41,413 nucleotides of DNA from an uncultured Gammaproteobacteria bacterium (GTDB lineage: Bacteria > Pseudomonadota > Gammaproteobacteria > Pseudomonadales > Ketobacteraceae): positions 1 to 41,413 of the forward strand of contig CAJXXT010000022.1 in the NCBI GenBank assembly GCA_913063495.1, given 5' to 3'. Shown one piece after another: positions 34,631 to 41,413 of the stretch. Numbering within the stretch: the first letter of the stretch is position 1; the number at the start of each line of letters is the position of its first letter. Under the pieces are notes generated by a model, which was given only the letters and a program-made list of their open reading frames with translations, searched no databases and was not told the origin of the DNA. The position numbers and the translations under genes were made by a program.

Positions 34631-34933
34631 CTATAGAACAGAAGTAAACCCTTCAAATTTAGGAGGCCCCATATAAACGTCTTTATTGCCACCCGCTCCA
34701 GCGTGTGCCTTTCTAAACGCTTCAGATGTCGTCCAATCCTTAAAGTGCTGCAAACTCTCCCACACCGTATGAGAAGCGAACAAGGTATACTCTTCCGTAG
34801 TATCGCCTTGCAAGAGATCAAAGCTGTTAAAACCAGGCACTTCATCCAAGAAGGTCTCACGCTGACTCCAAATATCAATAAACGCCTGCTCTTTGCCTAA
34901 CGCTATCTGAAATCGATTCATCGCTATGTACAT
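34631..34933 (-). CDS. IsdG/HmoA-like haem-degrading monooxygenase (ABM domain)
   Basis: 100 residues, one ferredoxin-like ABM domain. Enzymes of the IsdG branch open the haem ring and release iron. The catalytic triad of Staphylococcus IsdG (Asn7, Trp67, His77) is matched by Asn6 (MNRFQI), Trp67 (FKDWTTS) and His77 (FRKAH). The stretch TVWESLQHFKDWTTSEAF is very like IsdG. The start is ATG 34933 with GGGAG upstream. Other ABM proteins act on quinones or antibiotics, but they usually lack this triad. No haem uptake genes are adjacent. Confidence 0.85.
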   Translation of the reverse strand: MYIAMNRFQIALGKEQAFIDIWSQRETFLDEVPGFNSFDLLQGDTTEEYTLFASHTVWESLQHFKDWTTSEAFRKAHAGAGGNKDVYMGPPKFEGFTSVL

Positions 34934-35012: not shown

Positions 35013-36656
35013 TTACACATCAAAACGTATTCCCTGTGCTAAAGGAATATCATCGCCATAATTAATCGTGTTGGTTGTACGTCTCATATACTGCTTCCAA
35101 GCATCTGAGCCAGACTCCCTTCCTCCGCCAGTATCTTTCTCACCGCCAAAAGCGCCGCCAATTTCAGCACCCGATGTACCTATATTGACGTTTACTATGC
35201 CGCAGTCAGAGCCTGATGCCGACATAAAAACTTCTGCTTCTCGAACATCGGTAGTGAAAATAGCAGATGATAGCCCTTGAGGTACATCGTTCTGCCACGC
35301 TATCGCCTGGTGTAGCGATTGATAACGAACCACAAATAATAGCGGTGCGAAGGTTTCTAGTTGCAACAACGGCTCATCGCTAGACACTTCTACTATTGCA
35401 GGTTCAAGATACACCCCACCCCGATCTCCACCTCCACAGACTCCTTCTTCAAACTGCCTGCCTGCTAACTGCTTGCCACCAACCAACAATTGCCCCCCTC
35501 TAATGCTGACCTCATTTATGGCTTGATTCATTACATCTCGCGTCTGCCCGTTAATAACAGGGCCACATAAGTTGCTTTCGTCTCTCGGGTCACCTATTGC
35601 GATGGTTTTATACGTTGCAACCAACTTTTCCAAAAAGGCATCTGCGACAGATTCGTGAACAAATAAGCGACGCAAACTGGTGCACCGCTGACCACTAGTA
35701 CCCACCGCTGAAAATACTACGGCTTTTAACGCCATGGTTAGATCTGCACTTGGCGTAACAATTAAGGCATTATTCCCACCAAGTTCTAAAAGCGAGCGGC
35801 CTAAACGATGCGCAACACGTTCCGCTACGCTACGCCCCATTGGGACAGAGCCTGTGGCCGACACCAAAGGAATAAACGCATGATCAGCAATATTCTGTCC
35901 AACATCTTTATGACCATTAACAATCACTGACAGCGCAGGATAACTTGACAAAAGACCCATATCTCTTAACGCCGACACCAGCAATCGATGGCATGCCAAC
36001 GCACACAGCGGTGTTTTTTCCGAGGGCTTCCATACAACCGCATTACCACATACCAGAGCCAAAGCAGCGTTCCAAGCCCATACCGCCATCGGGAAGTTAA
36101 ATGCCGTGATAATACCCACAACACCCAACGGGTGCCACTGCTCCATCATCCGGTGATTCGGCCTTTCACTAGCTATCGTTAACCCATGTAATTGACGAGA
36201 CAAACCTACGGCAAACTCACAGACATCGATCACCTCTTGAACTTCTCCCAGAGACTCCTGCCACGTTTTTCCTGCCTCCAGTGTAATTAATTTTGCTAAT
36301 TCATTTTTATCTTGTCGTACTTTTTCTGCAAAACGTCGAATTAATTCACCACGTTTTGGTGCAGGAACAATGCGCCACTTAAGAAAACTTTCATGAGCTT
36401 GAGATATCGCGTCCAATACCGCCGTTTTTTCTGCAATTCCGCAATGCCCCAACACTTGGTTATCAATAGGTGAATGAACCGGAAAGGTCTGCATGGGCTC
36501 TGTTTTCACAAGCCCTTCATTTTCACCCACACACACAGCCGCCCAAACAGACTCACTCTCATCCTCGCTATCACCCACGGAAACCAAGGGTAAGATCTCA
36601 TTCGCGGTACCGACTAAGCAACCATTCTCCTGGGTAAATACTGTTTTCATCTCCAT
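35013..36656 (-). CDS. amaB: ALDH7-type aldehyde dehydrogenase (probable alpha-aminoadipate semialdehyde dehydrogenase)
   Basis: 547 residues. NAD-dependent oxidation of 2-aminoadipate 6-semialdehyde to 2-aminoadipate in lysine breakdown is the expected reaction. The ALDH core shows the Rossmann segment ITAFNFPMAVWAWNAALALV, general-base Glu in LELGGNNA and catalytic Cys325 in GQRCTSLRRL, which is the ALDH7 (antiquitin/AmaB) pattern. The first 40 or so residues (DSEDESESVW and nearby) extend beyond the usual 500-residue family length. The gene starts 14 bases after the saccharopine dehydrogenase stop, with GGAGA before the ATG. Gene context, more than sequence, fixes the substrate. Confidence 0.9.
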   Translation of the reverse strand: MEMKTVFTQENGCLVGTANEILPLVSVGDSEDESESVWAAVCVGENEGLVKTEPMQTFPVHSPIDNQVLGHCGIAEKTAVLDAISQAHESFLKWRIVPAPKRGELIRRFAEKVRQDKNELAKLITLEAGKTWQESLGEVQEVIDVCEFAVGLSRQLHGLTIASERPNHRMMEQWHPLGVVGIITAFNFPMAVWAWNAALALVCGNAVVWKPSEKTPLCALACHRLLVSALRDMGLLSSYPALSVIVNGHKDVGQNIADHAFIPLVSATGSVPMGRSVAERVAHRLGRSLLELGGNNALIVTPSADLTMALKAVVFSAVGTSGQRCTSLRRLFVHESVADAFLEKLVATYKTIAIGDPRDESNLCGPVINGQTRDVMNQAINEVSIRGGQLLVGGKQLAGRQFEEGVCGGGDRGGVYLEPAIVEVSSDEPLLQLETFAPLLFVVRYQSLHQAIAWQNDVPQGLSSAIFTTDVREAEVFMSASGSDCGIVNVNIGTSGAEIGGAFGGEKDTGGGRESGSDAWKQYMRRTTNTINYGDDIPLAQGIRFDV

Positions 36657-36670
36657 CGTTCGATCTCCGA

Positions 36671-37777
36671 TTAAATGGTGCTTTTAATGTAAGCTTGACC
36701 AAACCTATTCGCTTCAAACAACTCCAAATCCACATCCTCTTGGCGTAAAAAACCAGTATCAGGAAGCTTCCCTTCAAAATGTAAATCCAGGATTGCACAC
36801 ATTGACGATGCGGTTGTTAACTGAATTGAACTCCAATGTTCCCCATTACGATATTGGTGATAAAGCTTACGAGCATCGGTTATTTGCTCAAGCCGACCAT
36901 CTCGATATCCCTTCACCGTAACAAATATCAAAACAACATCTTGTTTGGTAATCGGTATAGATGTTTCAAATATCTGCTTTAGCAACGGCCTACGAGCGCT
37001 TTCTCCCAACTGAAGGTCTTGCATCAGAAATTGCATCAGGTACTGATGGCCTTTGTAACGAACCGTTTTATACGTTAACTCCTCAACCTTTCCTTGCAAC
37101 GTCTCACATAAGGTGCCCAGCCCACCCGAGGTGTTAAATGCCTCATAATCAACGCCATCTAAAGAAAAGCATTCCAACCCTTCCAAGGGTATAAGATCAA
37201 TACGTTCTCCGTGCTCAATAGCTTCGCATAAATTACAATATTCATTTATTAGCCCATCGGTTGACCACGTCAAGTTGTACATCATCCGGTTCGAAGGGTA
37301 CTTCGGCAATGCTCCAACCCGCATCTTTACAGACTGTACACGCTCAAATTTTCCCGCCAGATGGTAAGCAAGAATACCGATAAAACCAGGGGCCAATCCG
37401 CACTGTGGCATAAAAACCTGACCAGAAGCAGCATTAATAGCTATCTGCTTAATAGCCGCTGTCATTGCGACATCTTCGGTTAAATCAAAATAACTACACC
37501 CCTTATTCAGTGCTCCCTGCGCTATGATTGCACTCACATCATAGGAACAAGCCGAGACTACAGCATCCTGCCCCGTCAACGCTTGGGACAAGGCGTTAGA
37601 ATCGGTAACGTCGAGCTCCAATGTCGACACTTTATCTAAACCATTTAGCTTATTTAAAAACGTGTGCGCTTTATCTGCTACGGTCACCTCATAAGCACCA
37701 CTTTCTGCTAAAAGCTGCACTATCGCTGAACCAATCTTCCCAGCACCGATAATCAATACCTTATGATATTTCGACAT
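36671..37777 (-). CDS. saccharopine dehydrogenase family protein (lysine catabolism)
   Basis: 368 residues. Expected to oxidise saccharopine to glutamate and 2-aminoadipate 6-semialdehyde, which the neighbouring aldehyde dehydrogenase then uses. The Rossmann motif is VLIIGAGKIGSA (7-18). The segment MPQCGLAPGFIGILAYHLAG is typical of bacterial saccharopine dehydrogenases. ATG 37777 has GGGAGGTGG directly upstream; longer in-frame starts to 37888 add a basic, unlikely leader. It forms a two-gene operon with the aldehyde dehydrogenase. No lysine-ketoglutarate reductase gene is in the window, so either it is elsewhere or this enzyme works in a variant pathway. Confidence 0.9.
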   Translation of the reverse strand: MSKYHKVLIIGAGKIGSAIVQLLAESGAYEVTVADKAHTFLNKLNGLDKVSTLELDVTDSNALSQALTGQDAVVSACSYDVSAIIAQGALNKGCSYFDLTEDVAMTAAIKQIAINAASGQVFMPQCGLAPGFIGILAYHLAGKFERVQSVKMRVGALPKYPSNRMMYNLTWSTDGLINEYCNLCEAIEHGERIDLIPLEGLECFSLDGVDYEAFNTSGGLGTLCETLQGKVEELTYKTVRYKGHQYLMQFLMQDLQLGESARRPLLKQIFETSIPITKQDVVLIFVTVKGYRDGRLEQITDARKLYHQYRNGEHWSSIQLTTASSMCAILDLHFEGKLPDTGFLRQEDVDLELFEANRFGQAYIKSTI

Positions 37778-38074
37778 AACCACCTCCCTAGGACGAGAAG
37801 GCAAACCTACACTAACCCGCTCATCAACCCGTCTATCTACGCTACGCCGTTTAACAACACAAAGTAAAGAACGCATATATTCGAACAAAGCGGCGGCTTA
37901 TAACGTTTATTCCTTAAGAATTCGCCCCCCATATGACTACGGGGTCGATCATTTTGTAAGGAAAAATGAATATTTAGGCAGAACATTCTAATTTCCAACG
38001 ATAATATGCGCACAAATCAAACAAACTGGCTCTTTAAAGCCACTTCGTACTTTGGGAATAATGAGGAAACAACA

Positions 38075-38524
38075 ATGCAAGATAAAGTAAAAGCACAGAT
38101 AGAGCAGATTCAAGAGCAAGTAAACAAGCAACTAGATAGCGCTAAAGTTGAAGGCTTTCGCATCTTAAAAGAGCTTGGTGCTAACGTTGAAACTGAAGAA
38201 TTAAACATCTCTGAAGTTGTTTCTGAAATCCGTGAAGCCAATCCTACTGTTAAAGAATTTGTACGTAACTTAAACGTTGCAACGTACGACAACCGTTTTC
38301 GTGCAAACTGGAATGCAACAATGGGTACTGCACTCGCTAAATTGAACATCGAAAAAGCGTATGTTCGTAGCGTTAAGCCTCGTATCGCAGAAGCTCGTGA
38401 CACTGTAAACTCACGCGTTAAAGACATTCAAGAGCTTTCTGAGAAAGCTCAAGATAAAGCACAAGAGCTTAGCAAAACTGCACAAGACAAAGCTCAAGAG
38501 CTTCGAGCTAAAATAGCGGGTTAA
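38075..38524 (+). CDS. small helical protein with C-terminal AQDKAQEL repeats (phasin-like?)
   Basis: 149 residues, strongly helical and charged, with no signal peptide. The C-terminus has two near-identical 11-residue units (AQDKAQELSKT, AQDKAQELRAK), an amphipathic pattern as in LEA, apolipoprotein or phasin tails. I do not recognise the middle part (NLNVATYDNRFRANWNATMG). Start ATG 38075 has GAGGAA 8 bases upstream; an earlier in-frame ATG at 38006 lacks one. A strong terminator follows. The compact single-gene unit with a good ribosome site suggests an abundant protein. Phasin-like binding to storage granules or membranes is a guess. Confidence 0.8.
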   Translation: MQDKVKAQIEQIQEQVNKQLDSAKVEGFRILKELGANVETEELNISEVVSEIREANPTVKEFVRNLNVATYDNRFRANWNATMGTALAKLNIEKAYVRSVKPRIAEARDTVNSRVKDIQELSEKAQDKAQELSKTAQDKAQELRAKIAG

Positions 38525-38552
38525 TCGCCACTATATTACCTTCTTCTTTTTG

Positions 38553-38580
38553 GGTCCTCTTCTATGAGGGCCTTTTTTTT
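38553..38580 (+). terminator. rho-independent terminator
   Basis: GGTCCTC (38553-38559) pairs with GAGGGCC (38566-38572) around a 6-base loop, followed by eight T residues, 29 bases after the helical-protein stop codon. Confidence 0.9.
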
Positions 38581-38671
38581 GCCTGAATTTTGGTTTTAAC
38601 AAAAGTGGTGGTAGCATGAGTGGCAACGCAGGTTCCCATCGAATAATATAGCTTCACACATATAAAGCCTC

Positions 38672-39172
38672 ATGAATAATAACGATAGTATTCTCTACAC
38701 CCCATATTCACAGGATAACAAAGAAGAGTCTCCCGTTGCGCTGGATCACAATGATGACCTTCCGGCCAAAGTTGCCGAGCCCGACACCTTATCGCGCCTT
38801 GTACCTCAATTAAAAAACAGCAAATCCCTAAAAGAAACCCCCAGAATCATTTGCAGAGCTTGTCACTTCACCATTACATCACCATTATTTTTAATGGCCG
38901 TAGGTCAAAGTGCCTACCACGTATTTACCAACCCTTCCGGTATGAGTTTTGACATTCAAACTTTTGATATTGCCAGCGGCTGCATCGTCAGCGGGGCATT
39001 TACTGAACACTTCTCTTGGTTTCCTGGTTATTTATGGCAATACGCTTACTGTGAAGGATGTGGCGAACACTTAGGCTGGCATTATAAACAAGCGGAAGAA
39101 CAAAATGCAGGGAGCGCTGAAGGGGGTCGTTTTTTTGCCCTCATAACAGATCACCTGACGTTTCAGGATTAA
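38672..39172 (+). CDS. CULT-domain protein (bacterial cereblon homologue)
   Basis: 166 residues. After an acidic, probably disordered N-terminus (about 1-50), residues 57-163 match the CULT domain of eukaryotic cereblon and of Magnetospirillum MsCI4. Zinc ligands are Cys61/Cys64 (CRAC) and Cys127/Cys130 (CEGC). The aromatic cage that holds glutarimide, uridine and thalidomide is complete: Trp116 and Trp122 (SWFPGYLW) and Trp136 (HLGWHY). The phrases NPSGMSF and HLGWHY are near-identical to MsCI4 as I recall it. The natural role in bacteria is unknown; C-terminal cyclic imides are the proposed ligands. There is no signal peptide. The ribosome site is weak. Confidence 0.9.
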   Translation: MNNNDSILYTPYSQDNKEESPVALDHNDDLPAKVAEPDTLSRLVPQLKNSKSLKETPRIICRACHFTITSPLFLMAVGQSAYHVFTNPSGMSFDIQTFDIASGCIVSGAFTEHFSWFPGYLWQYAYCEGCGEHLGWHYKQAEEQNAGSAEGGRFFALITDHLTFQD

Positions 39173-39286: not shown

Positions 39287-39363
<77 letters not shown>

Positions 39364-39419: not shown

Positions 39420-41081
39420 CTATTTTAATTTTAATCTCATTCGTTCAAAACTTGAAAGGTTCGGCGCAAAGGCTGCGGTTTCATTTTTTGGCTTCTCTTT
39501 AGATGGTGCATCTACACGTACTAAACCTGCCTTACCATTCATAGTTTTATACCCCCTTGCAAAGAACTGCCAATCACTACGTCGAGTGATTGTTCTCATG
39601 TGATACCACTCTCCCTGAATTCTCTCAGGTGTCACATCTAATAGAACATATCCCCGATGATAGTATTCAACGTATTTAATATGTGGAGAACCCGCCTGCA
39701 CACTTTGAGAAGCGGCCCATGCCAATTGATAATTTTCAATTCCTGGCGATGATACTGCAGGGGTTACAAACTCCACTGCAATAGCACCATCTCCTGTATC
39801 TTTATCATAGGTGCTCGCCACAAAAGGTGTTGGCGTTATATCACTGGCCCAAGAAGAATGAATGTCTCCGGTAAGCACCACCATATTATCAATCTCGTTA
39901 TCGATAAGATAATTGTGTAAACGCTGCCTGGCCAAAGGGTAGCCATCCCACTGATCCATATTAAAACCAATTGCCCCAGCAGAAAACTGAGCCATCATTA
40001 CTTGCTGACCCAACATTCTCCATTGTGTGTTATTTTCAACAGATGCATCCAAGGCATTAAACAACCAAGACTCCTGCTTCTCTCCAAGCAAGTGCTGATC
40101 AACATCAAGTATCTCTCCTAAATTACCAATCTCTGGCTGCTTGGTTCTACCCGCAAGGCGTGTATCAAGCATTATCAAATCCAACAAATCACCAAAACGA
40201 AAATCACGATAAATGAGGTTGTCGCCATAAGCATCTTGACCATGCTCTCGAATGGGCATCCATTCAAAGTATGCCTGTATTCCTGCCGCCCTTCGATCTA
40301 ACCACCCTCCCTCAGTATTTGCATCATGGTTTTGAGCCCCTTCCGACCAAGAATCATTTGATGTTTCATGATCATCCCATATCGTTATGAAGGGAAATTG
40401 CTGATGTACTCGTTGTAAGTCCTGATCCGTTTTATACTGGGCATGGCGTAATCGATAATCAGACAGGCTGATAATTTCCCTATCTGGGCTGTGGACTCTA
40501 TCAATTTTATCTGATGAATAAGAGCCACCATACTCGTAAATATAATCACCAAGATGAAGCACTGCGTCCAAGTCCTGACGATTTGCGATGGCGGCATAAA
40601 CATTAAAATACCCGTAGGTATAATTGGTACAAGAGGTCATTGCCAATCGAATATGAGACACACCCCCTACCGGAAGCGTTTTTGTTCTTCCCGTATCTGA
40701 GGCCCAATTAAGCGCCTCAAAACGATAATAATAGGTAGTACCCGGCAGCAAACCTAACGCATCTATTTTAACGGTATAGTCTTTATCTAAATCAGTTTCA
40801 CCACTCCCCGTAAGCACAATATCATTCAACGTAGGGTCAGTTGCAACCAACCACTGATAACCAATAATACCCGGTCTATCACTGCCCTGCTTAATATCAC
40901 CCTTATCATTCAGTGGCGTTATTCGCGTCCAAAGAATTACCCGATCAGATAACGGGTCACCGCTAGCAATGCCGTGTAAAAATGGGCTATAGGATGATGC
41001 GCACCCCGTTACAACGGGTAATGTTGCAGCCCCCGCAGAACCAATGGCCCCTTTAAAAAAAGCTCTTCGTGAAAAAGCCAT
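39420..41081 (-). CDS. phoD: PhoD-like alkaline phosphatase/phosphodiesterase, Tat lipoprotein
   Basis: 553 residues. Twin-arginine signal (SRRAFFKG, residues 4-11) runs into a lipobox VTGC (Cys27), so the folded enzyme is exported by Tat and probably lipid-anchored. An N-terminal PhoD domain (about 30-135) precedes the metallophosphoesterase core with Cys151 (TSCTNY, iron ligand), Asp179 (HLGDY), Asp236-Asp237-His238 (WDDHE) and TGDIHSSW. PhoD enzymes use Fe and Ca and release phosphate from mono- and diesters, including teichoic acids, phospholipids or extracellular DNA. No Pho box was searched for with confidence. It is a single gene. Confidence 0.93.
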   Translation of the reverse strand: MAFSRRAFFKGAIGSAGAATLPVVTGCASSYSPFLHGIASGDPLSDRVILWTRITPLNDKGDIKQGSDRPGIIGYQWLVATDPTLNDIVLTGSGETDLDKDYTVKIDALGLLPGTTYYYRFEALNWASDTGRTKTLPVGGVSHIRLAMTSCTNYTYGYFNVYAAIANRQDLDAVLHLGDYIYEYGGSYSSDKIDRVHSPDREIISLSDYRLRHAQYKTDQDLQRVHQQFPFITIWDDHETSNDSWSEGAQNHDANTEGGWLDRRAAGIQAYFEWMPIREHGQDAYGDNLIYRDFRFGDLLDLIMLDTRLAGRTKQPEIGNLGEILDVDQHLLGEKQESWLFNALDASVENNTQWRMLGQQVMMAQFSAGAIGFNMDQWDGYPLARQRLHNYLIDNEIDNMVVLTGDIHSSWASDITPTPFVASTYDKDTGDGAIAVEFVTPAVSSPGIENYQLAWAASQSVQAGSPHIKYVEYYHRGYVLLDVTPERIQGEWYHMRTITRRSDWQFFARGYKTMNGKAGLVRVDAPSKEKPKNETAAFAPNLSSFERMRLKLK

Positions 41082-41233: not shown

Positions 41234-41413
41234 TTAACCGAGCTCATCCAATGTTAAGCGATAGCTGGGAACAAATTTATCCAAGAAAAAGCGCACCTCA
41301 GGCTGAGCATTATCGCCTAGCAATAGCTCAACGCGAGATTTCGCGACAACAAACTCCGCGTTCCCTGCATCAACTTCTTGAATACATTTTAAATAGGCAG
41401 AAATAATATCTGC
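41234..41413 (-). CDS. C-terminal fragment of an unidentified gene entering from the right edge
   Basis: Reading the minus strand from the last base gives 59 open codons ending in TAA at 41234. The fragment begins ADIISAYLKCIQEVDAG and ends VPSYRLTLDELG, a balanced, protein-like composition with charged helices. I prefer it over the overlapping plus-strand frame at 41215-41406, whose composition is less protein-like. It would be upstream of the phoD-like gene on the same strand, 153 bases away. The product is not recognised. Confidence 0.55.
   Translation of the reverse strand, partial: ADIISAYLKCIQEVDAGNAEFVVAKSRVELLLGDNAQPEVRFFLDKFVPSYRLTLDELG

Follow-up and report, generated by a model that had tools for sequence, protein, structure and literature searches.

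The window studied here, a stretch of 41,413 nucleotides from an uncultured gammaproteobacterium of the family Ketobacteraceae (contig CAJXXT010000022.1), encodes a small protein that is a real, apparently intact new member of an already known bacterial group of CULT proteins. Judged from its residues, it is of the cereblon type and has an intact zinc site and aromatic cage. By analogy with human cereblon, it may be a stand-alone reader of C-terminal cyclic imides, a role to which we assign a probability of roughly 0.4. Coordinates of the features discussed are listed in Table 1.

Table 1. Positions of the CULT gene, its parts and its neighbors in the window, with the loci elsewhere that pair CULT with an RluA-type gene
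Feature	Position	Strand	Remarks
CULT protein	38672..39172	+	166 aa; open reading frame with ATG start
Segment ahead of the CULT domain	38777..38845	+	residues 36-58; helix-like motif LSRLVPQL at 40-47; basis: congener identity, motif statistics
Zinc ligands	38852..39061	+	C61, C64 (38852-38863) and C127, C130 (39050-39061); MsCI4 C24, C27, C90, C93
Aromatic cage	39017..39085	+	W116, W122, W136, with Y138 at the base; MsCI4 W79, W85, W99, Y101
HmuQ heme-degrading protein	34631..34933	-	above NCBIfam cut-off
L-piperidine-6-carboxylate dehydrogenase	35013..36656	-	above NCBIfam cut-off
Saccharopine-dehydrogenase-like protein	36671..37888	-	adjoins the preceding gene
Helical protein, unnamed	38006..38524	+	probable start 38072; synteny only
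Terminator-like hairpin and T run	38552..38583	+	between the helical and CULT genes
tRNA-Met(CAT), initiator type	39287..39363	-	
PhoD-like phosphatase	39420..41081	-	between tRNA and YfbR; not found in L022-L025, of the same genus group
YfbR (5'-deoxynucleotidase), 3' end	41234..41413	-	cut by contig end; syntenic neighbor
CULT-RluA loci			L035, L040, L173, L175-L178, L180, L182, L191, L206, L208, L210, L213, L214, L216, L218-L220, L224

Identification of the CULT protein

Crystal chains of MsCI4 are the top result of a phmmer search with the window protein against solved structures (E 1.3e-19, 7ps9_A, covering residues 60-162). Chains named 'Protein cereblon' rank after them (E 2e-10 and weaker), and all 46 sequences listed carry the name cereblon. 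Similarity of this degree goes far past what chance would give. The match to MsCI4, together with zinc and cage residues at MsCI4 spacing, bears out the family call of an earlier sequence-only reading, which had named the product a cereblon-like CULT protein. In Pfam, the protein resembles Yippee-Mis18 (PF03226) at E 1e-5 and 26.1 bits, just under the curated cut-off of 26.6; Yippee and Mis18 are beta-tent relatives. A scan against NCBIfam gave no match at E 0.1, and no LON domain was matched in Pfam at E 0.1 within the 166 residues. CULT proteins secreted by animals and oomycetes carry an N-terminal signal sequence; in the window protein, no long hydrophobic run is apparent by eye in residues 1-56. 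The protein stands alone and is probably cytosolic.

MsCI4 (MGR_0879 of Magnetospirillum gryphiswaldense; PDB 4V2Y and others) is likewise a stand-alone, single-domain bacterial CULT protein. Small CULT-only proteins also make up the bacterial group of Lupas et al. 2015, which was described as mainly delta-proteobacterial with a few alpha- and gamma-proteobacterial members, gamma proteobacterium BDW918 being among its sources (PMC4287342). The CULT (thalidomide-binding) domain of human cereblon has the zinc pairs and the tri-tryptophan cage in common with the window protein. Unlike human cereblon, however, the window protein has neither a LON domain nor a DDB1-binding region, and its 166 residues in all leave no room for the latter.

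Zinc site and aromatic cage

Both CxxC pairs that had been reported from the letters are present, at residues 61-64 and 127-130, as are all three cage tryptophans. The C1-W-W-C2-W spacing is that of MsCI4 without a gap, the first cysteines of the two pairs are 66 residues apart in both proteins, and each residue number in the window protein equals the MsCI4 number plus 37. Over residues 60-138, which align gap-free, 36 of 79 positions are identical. The MsCI4 residues matched comprise C24, C27, C90, C93, N50, P51 and G53, and further F77, S78, W79, Y83, W85, W99 and Y101. Shared features are therefore the zinc ligands, the NPxG hairpin motif (N87 P88 S89 G90), the three cage tryptophans, the tyrosine at the cage base, and the equivalents of Phe77 and Tyr83 (F114 and Y120). 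In MsCI4, Trp79, Trp85 and Trp99 form the glutarimide pocket, and hydrogen bonds are made by the backbone of Phe77 and Trp79 and by Tyr101 (PMC8900816). Among the positions compared, the window protein differs from MsCI4 in having His113 for Glu76, which sits beside the pocket, and Ser89 for Ala52. Its post-cage loop is also 7 residues longer.

The three tryptophans and four cysteines are found at identical spacing in 83 of 86 CULT loci, a collection comprising the window, locus L022, and further sets of 18, 26, 20 and 20 loci. By eye, the set is also kept in L075, with a one-residue shift, and in L092, where the script mis-set the first cysteine. The CULT homologue in L096 has no CxxC in the frame read, and is possibly decaying or mis-sequenced. 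Of the 83 loci with fixed spacing, the other three of the 86 being left out, 52 have Phe at the base of the cage and 31 have Tyr, and 77 retain NPxG.

Candidate ligands

The sequence-only reading had called the function of bacterial CULT proteins undefined, and this agrees with the portions of PMC4449219 and PMC4287342 cited here, which leave the natural ligand open. In the mechanism that we favor, a zinc-stapled beta-tent would present the three-tryptophan cage. The cage would close on a ring with a CO-NH-CO edge, as was shown for MsCI4 and as the matching pocket residues suggest here. The likeliest natural ligand would be the C-terminal cyclic imide of damaged or cleaved proteins, as with human cereblon, by which such imides are recognized and removed (PMC11974815). 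Because bacteria are without a cereblon-type ubiquitin ligase, the helix-like segment at residues 40-47 might dock the loaded domain onto a partner or a second copy.

Protein carboxyl methyltransferases promote cyclic imides in mammals (PMC11974815), and 181 of the 194 genomes from the order encode such an enzyme, including all 37 that bear CULT and 144 of the 157 others (0.06 by chance, relatedness ignored). Because the enzyme is near universal in the order, this co-occurrence does not discriminate and lends the imide reading little support.

MsCI4 binds both thalidomide and uridine, the latter in the low micromolar range, and binds neither thymidine nor cytidine (PMC4449219). Because uridine is bound too, the pocket itself does not pick between ligands. 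The cage might therefore read uracil or uridine, either free or in RNA, in which case the protein could act in nucleoside sensing or RNA modification. We consider this role somewhat unlikely, and the gene contexts that bear on it are described below. A different occupant, for example methylated lysine or arginine or a quaternary ammonium compound, is improbable. Similar cage architectures do bind cationic groups, and the same was proposed for cereblon, but the binding studies of such groups are called inconclusive in that paper (PMC4449219).

The N-terminal extension

Sixty residues precede the first zinc cysteine in the window protein, compared with 23 in MsCI4, and these 37 additional residues bring with them the helix-like motif. 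The extension had been described as acidic and of low complexity. The first part of this description holds in a mild form, and mainly for the first half: residues 1-35 have a net charge of -5 (8th percentile) and average complexity (51st percentile), and residues 1-56 have a net charge of -4 (23rd percentile). The second part does not hold, as residues 1-56, with an entropy of 3.74 bits, stand at the 20th percentile. These percentiles refer to 1229 overlapping windows taken from the contig's ORFs with a length of at least 140 aa.

The window protein and its two closest congeners are 100% identical over residues 36-58 despite diverged synonymous sites (dS 1.18-1.45), compared with 54-58% for residues 1-35 and 90-94% for the core (residues 59-138). 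Against the more distant L022, the corresponding identities are 43% for residues 36-58, 26% for residues 1-35 and 79% for the core. Thus, the core is under constraint and so, within the group of closest congeners, are residues 36-58. At the distance of L022, this segment is less constrained than the core, because 43% stands against 79%.

Within the segment, LSRLVPQL fits an amphipathic-helix pattern located 14-30 residues ahead of the first zinc cysteine. Of 22 genera sampled from the order, 13 show this pattern (shuffle mean 1.54, 0 of 5000 shuffles as high), although the test was not blind, because the pattern was set after the sequences of the order had been viewed. Outside the order, it is found anywhere in the N terminus in 2 of 33 genera (shuffle mean 1.66). 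In a later-fetched set, 12 of 20 species have the pattern (shuffle mean 1.96), as do 5 of 10 genera (shuffle mean 0.86), with 0 of 5000 shuffles as high in either case, and it occurs in 2 of 5 later loci from previously unsampled genera (shuffle mean 0.30, 0.015). All these statistics draw on sequences that are related and thus not independent, with start codons picked by rule. By eye, no motif is universal to the N terminus over the 86 loci. AlphaFold models built on 4-sequence alignments, with three relatives each, have low confidence (mean pLDDT 39.3 for the window protein and 43.9 for residues 36-166). The first has a helix at residues 40-48 and the second at 39-49, which lends weak support to a helix near residues 40-47.

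Neighbors in the window and its family

The CULT gene lies between the helical protein gene and the initiator-type tRNA-Met gene, as had been noted from the window itself. The further proposal that it stands as its own unit is also supported. A terminator-like hairpin within the 147 bp that separate it from the helical gene points weakly in this direction (4 such hairpins found versus 1.7 expected in shuffles), and CULT is absent from the closed genome G005 of the same family, which has the same flanks. The tRNA has a mismatch at position 1:72 and GGG/CCC in the anticodon stem, as initiator tRNAs do. Its first base and the base at position 72 are both U, and two tandem copies are present in L021 and L025.

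The order of genes in the family raises the possibility that CULT forms one system with the helical protein or with YfbR. In 11 of 13 family loci, the gene immediately upstream, and on the same strand, is the helical one. YfbR lies downstream in convergent orientation in each of the 12 family loci apart from the window, at whose edge its 3' end lies; that fragment matches residues 134-192 of the L023 YfbR with 92% identity over 59 aa, and the family assignment was demonstrated for its relatives in L025 and L026. However, G005 keeps PhoH-YfbR-helical-SDH-P6CDH-RimO without CULT, with 229 bp between the flanking stop codons and no CULT remnant. The helical gene is found in 14 of 15 family genomes, versus 12 of 15 for CULT. 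Across the order, 11 of 194 genomes have it, 3 of them without CULT, and in the two f7 genomes that have both genes, these are on separate contigs. YfbR, moreover, is on the opposite strand. Because G005 retains the block without CULT, we regard the window neighbors as background synteny and CULT as dispensable, and a single system of this kind is highly improbable. On the same grounds, we rejected the idea that CULT is partnered with the helical protein, with YfbR, or with the pair formed by the P6C dehydrogenase and the saccharopine-dehydrogenase-like protein.

The helical protein has a conserved NVATYDNRFRxNWN-like stretch and no match above cut-off in Pfam or NCBIfam.

RluA-type pseudouridine synthase genes in sister families

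A comparison of gene neighborhoods, which the sequence-only reading had suggested, thus gave ordinary synteny for the flanking genes in the window's own family, and it revealed a pairing with RluA-type pseudouridine synthase genes in five other families. The scan covered one locus per genus label (44 of 66 loci) and 135 neighbors no more than two genes from CULT and no shorter than 100 aa, smaller ORFs and ORFs cut by the locus end having been dropped; genes were called by a simple rule that may err in G+C-rich loci. These neighbors matched 163 Pfam families at E 1e-6, the commonest of which occurs in 4 members, and pseudouridine synthases account for 3 of the 135. CULT has no fixed partner gene. 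TauE, SLT, epimerase and poly(A)-polymerase-type genes, which lie close to CULT in 4-5 of the genera in the class, look like a single syntenic block.

In 10 of 86 loci and in 10 of 20 later ones, or 20 of 106, the gene directly downstream on the same strand is of the RluA type, as judged by a profile derived from seven pseudouridine synthases that neighbor CULT. By family, these are 13 of 14 loci in f24, 3 of 5 in f294, 2 of 2 in f17, 1 of 1 in f280 and 1 of 2 in f4. One more f294 locus has the synthase 4.4 kb away. The distance from the CULT stop to the synthase start is 8-92 bp in 17 of the 20 and 158-278 bp in the other 3. Because MsCI4 binds uridine, the pairing is a possible context for CULT, and it fits a uridine-reading protein that would be co-expressed with the synthase in these sister families. 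Also in line with such a protein, a TrmJ/YjtD-type RNA methyltransferase gene directly follows CULT in both f2 loci (L034 and L179), and the YfbR gene adjoins CULT in the window's family.

Several observations weigh against reading uridine, however. The synthase is directly downstream in 0 of 36 other loci of the order, including 0 of 13 in f1, the window's family, and in 0 of 46 loci outside the order, although absence is uncertain where contigs stop near CULT, as in L037, L038, L039, L222 and L223. One locus outside the order, L086, has an RluA-type gene 1.8 kb upstream on the opposite strand. In L172 and L174, CULT persists next to the DUF2244 gene that follows, and the synthase is missing from the block. 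YfbR is kept in place in G005, where CULT is missing. The three synthases scanned have RluA as their best NCBIfam match, but at 173, 232 and 246 bits they fall below the equivalog cut-off of 286. Finally, all 20 cases belong to six genera within one order, and a single genus contributes 13 of them, so common descent explains much of the pairing. Because many of these loci share an upstream methyltransferase gene, part of the adjacency reflects a wider conserved block. On the CULT tree, which is poorly resolved, the synthase label changes 6 times, at least 3 of them by well-supported branches.

RluA-family synthases are encoded in 15 of 15 genomes of the window's family, none of them above the RluA cut-off, and among those listed for the window's genome none is on the window's contig. 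The main text of PMC4287342 contains neither the word 'operon' nor 'neighborhood', and no report of a CULT-pseudouridine-synthase gene pair was found by title or abstract opening in a literature search that mostly left subscription papers outside. A still more specific proposal, in which bacterial CULT proteins would be uridine readers tied to RNA pseudouridylation, with CULT and an RluA-type synthase as a two-gene operon in part of this order and the helix-like motif, recurrent in the order and also present in the window protein, as a docking element, strikes us as a long shot. Recognition of C-terminal cyclic imides is the reading that we prefer for the window protein.

Distribution and inheritance

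CULT is found in 12 of 15 genomes of the window's family and in 19 of 38 relatives. At higher ranks, it is found in 59 of 390 genomes for the order, 29 of 369 for the class and 21 of 398 for the phylum, and every one of these counts includes the window's genome. The class total of 29 includes matches in G122 and G393, which are in pieces and were left out of the loci fetched. The family genomes without CULT are G004 (87% complete), G006 (54% complete) and the closed G005, and the gene can thus be missing from close relatives.

The tree has 86 rows (85 loci, with L096 excluded, plus MsCI4) and just 100 columns, and many of its forks are open. The 13 family rows form one clade (100/99), in which the window groups beside L023 and L024 of its genus. 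Because these rows form a single clade, we read the history of CULT within the family as vertical inheritance. The 13 rows include L022, whose CULT protein is 58% identical to that of the window. L022 is recorded as Fluviicola (Bacteroidota) yet carries the CULT and YfbR genes of the window's family, and is probably a mis-binned contig.

A mobile or defence origin was rejected, since no search gave a confirmed match: tblastn with the window protein found no CULT relative on plasmids, one peptide pattern matched 22 stretches of viral contigs of which 0 were confirmed, and PADLOC had no match for CULT at E 0.01.

Significance

The pocket that thalidomide targets in humans thus has a small stand-alone bacterial version here that looks intact and inherited. 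Because such proteins were already known, the window protein itself is of modest value, as one more intact member whose N-terminal segment is now better described. The most useful outcome lies outside the window, in the CULT-RluA pair of sister families, which offers a testable context for uridine binding. With CULT kept beside an RNA-uridine-modifying enzyme in some genomes, and missing from a closed genome whose block is unchanged in other respects, the question can be put to the test. If CULT proteins do read uridine in connection with pseudouridylation, this would supply the missing biological context for the long-known binding of uridine by the thalidomide pocket.
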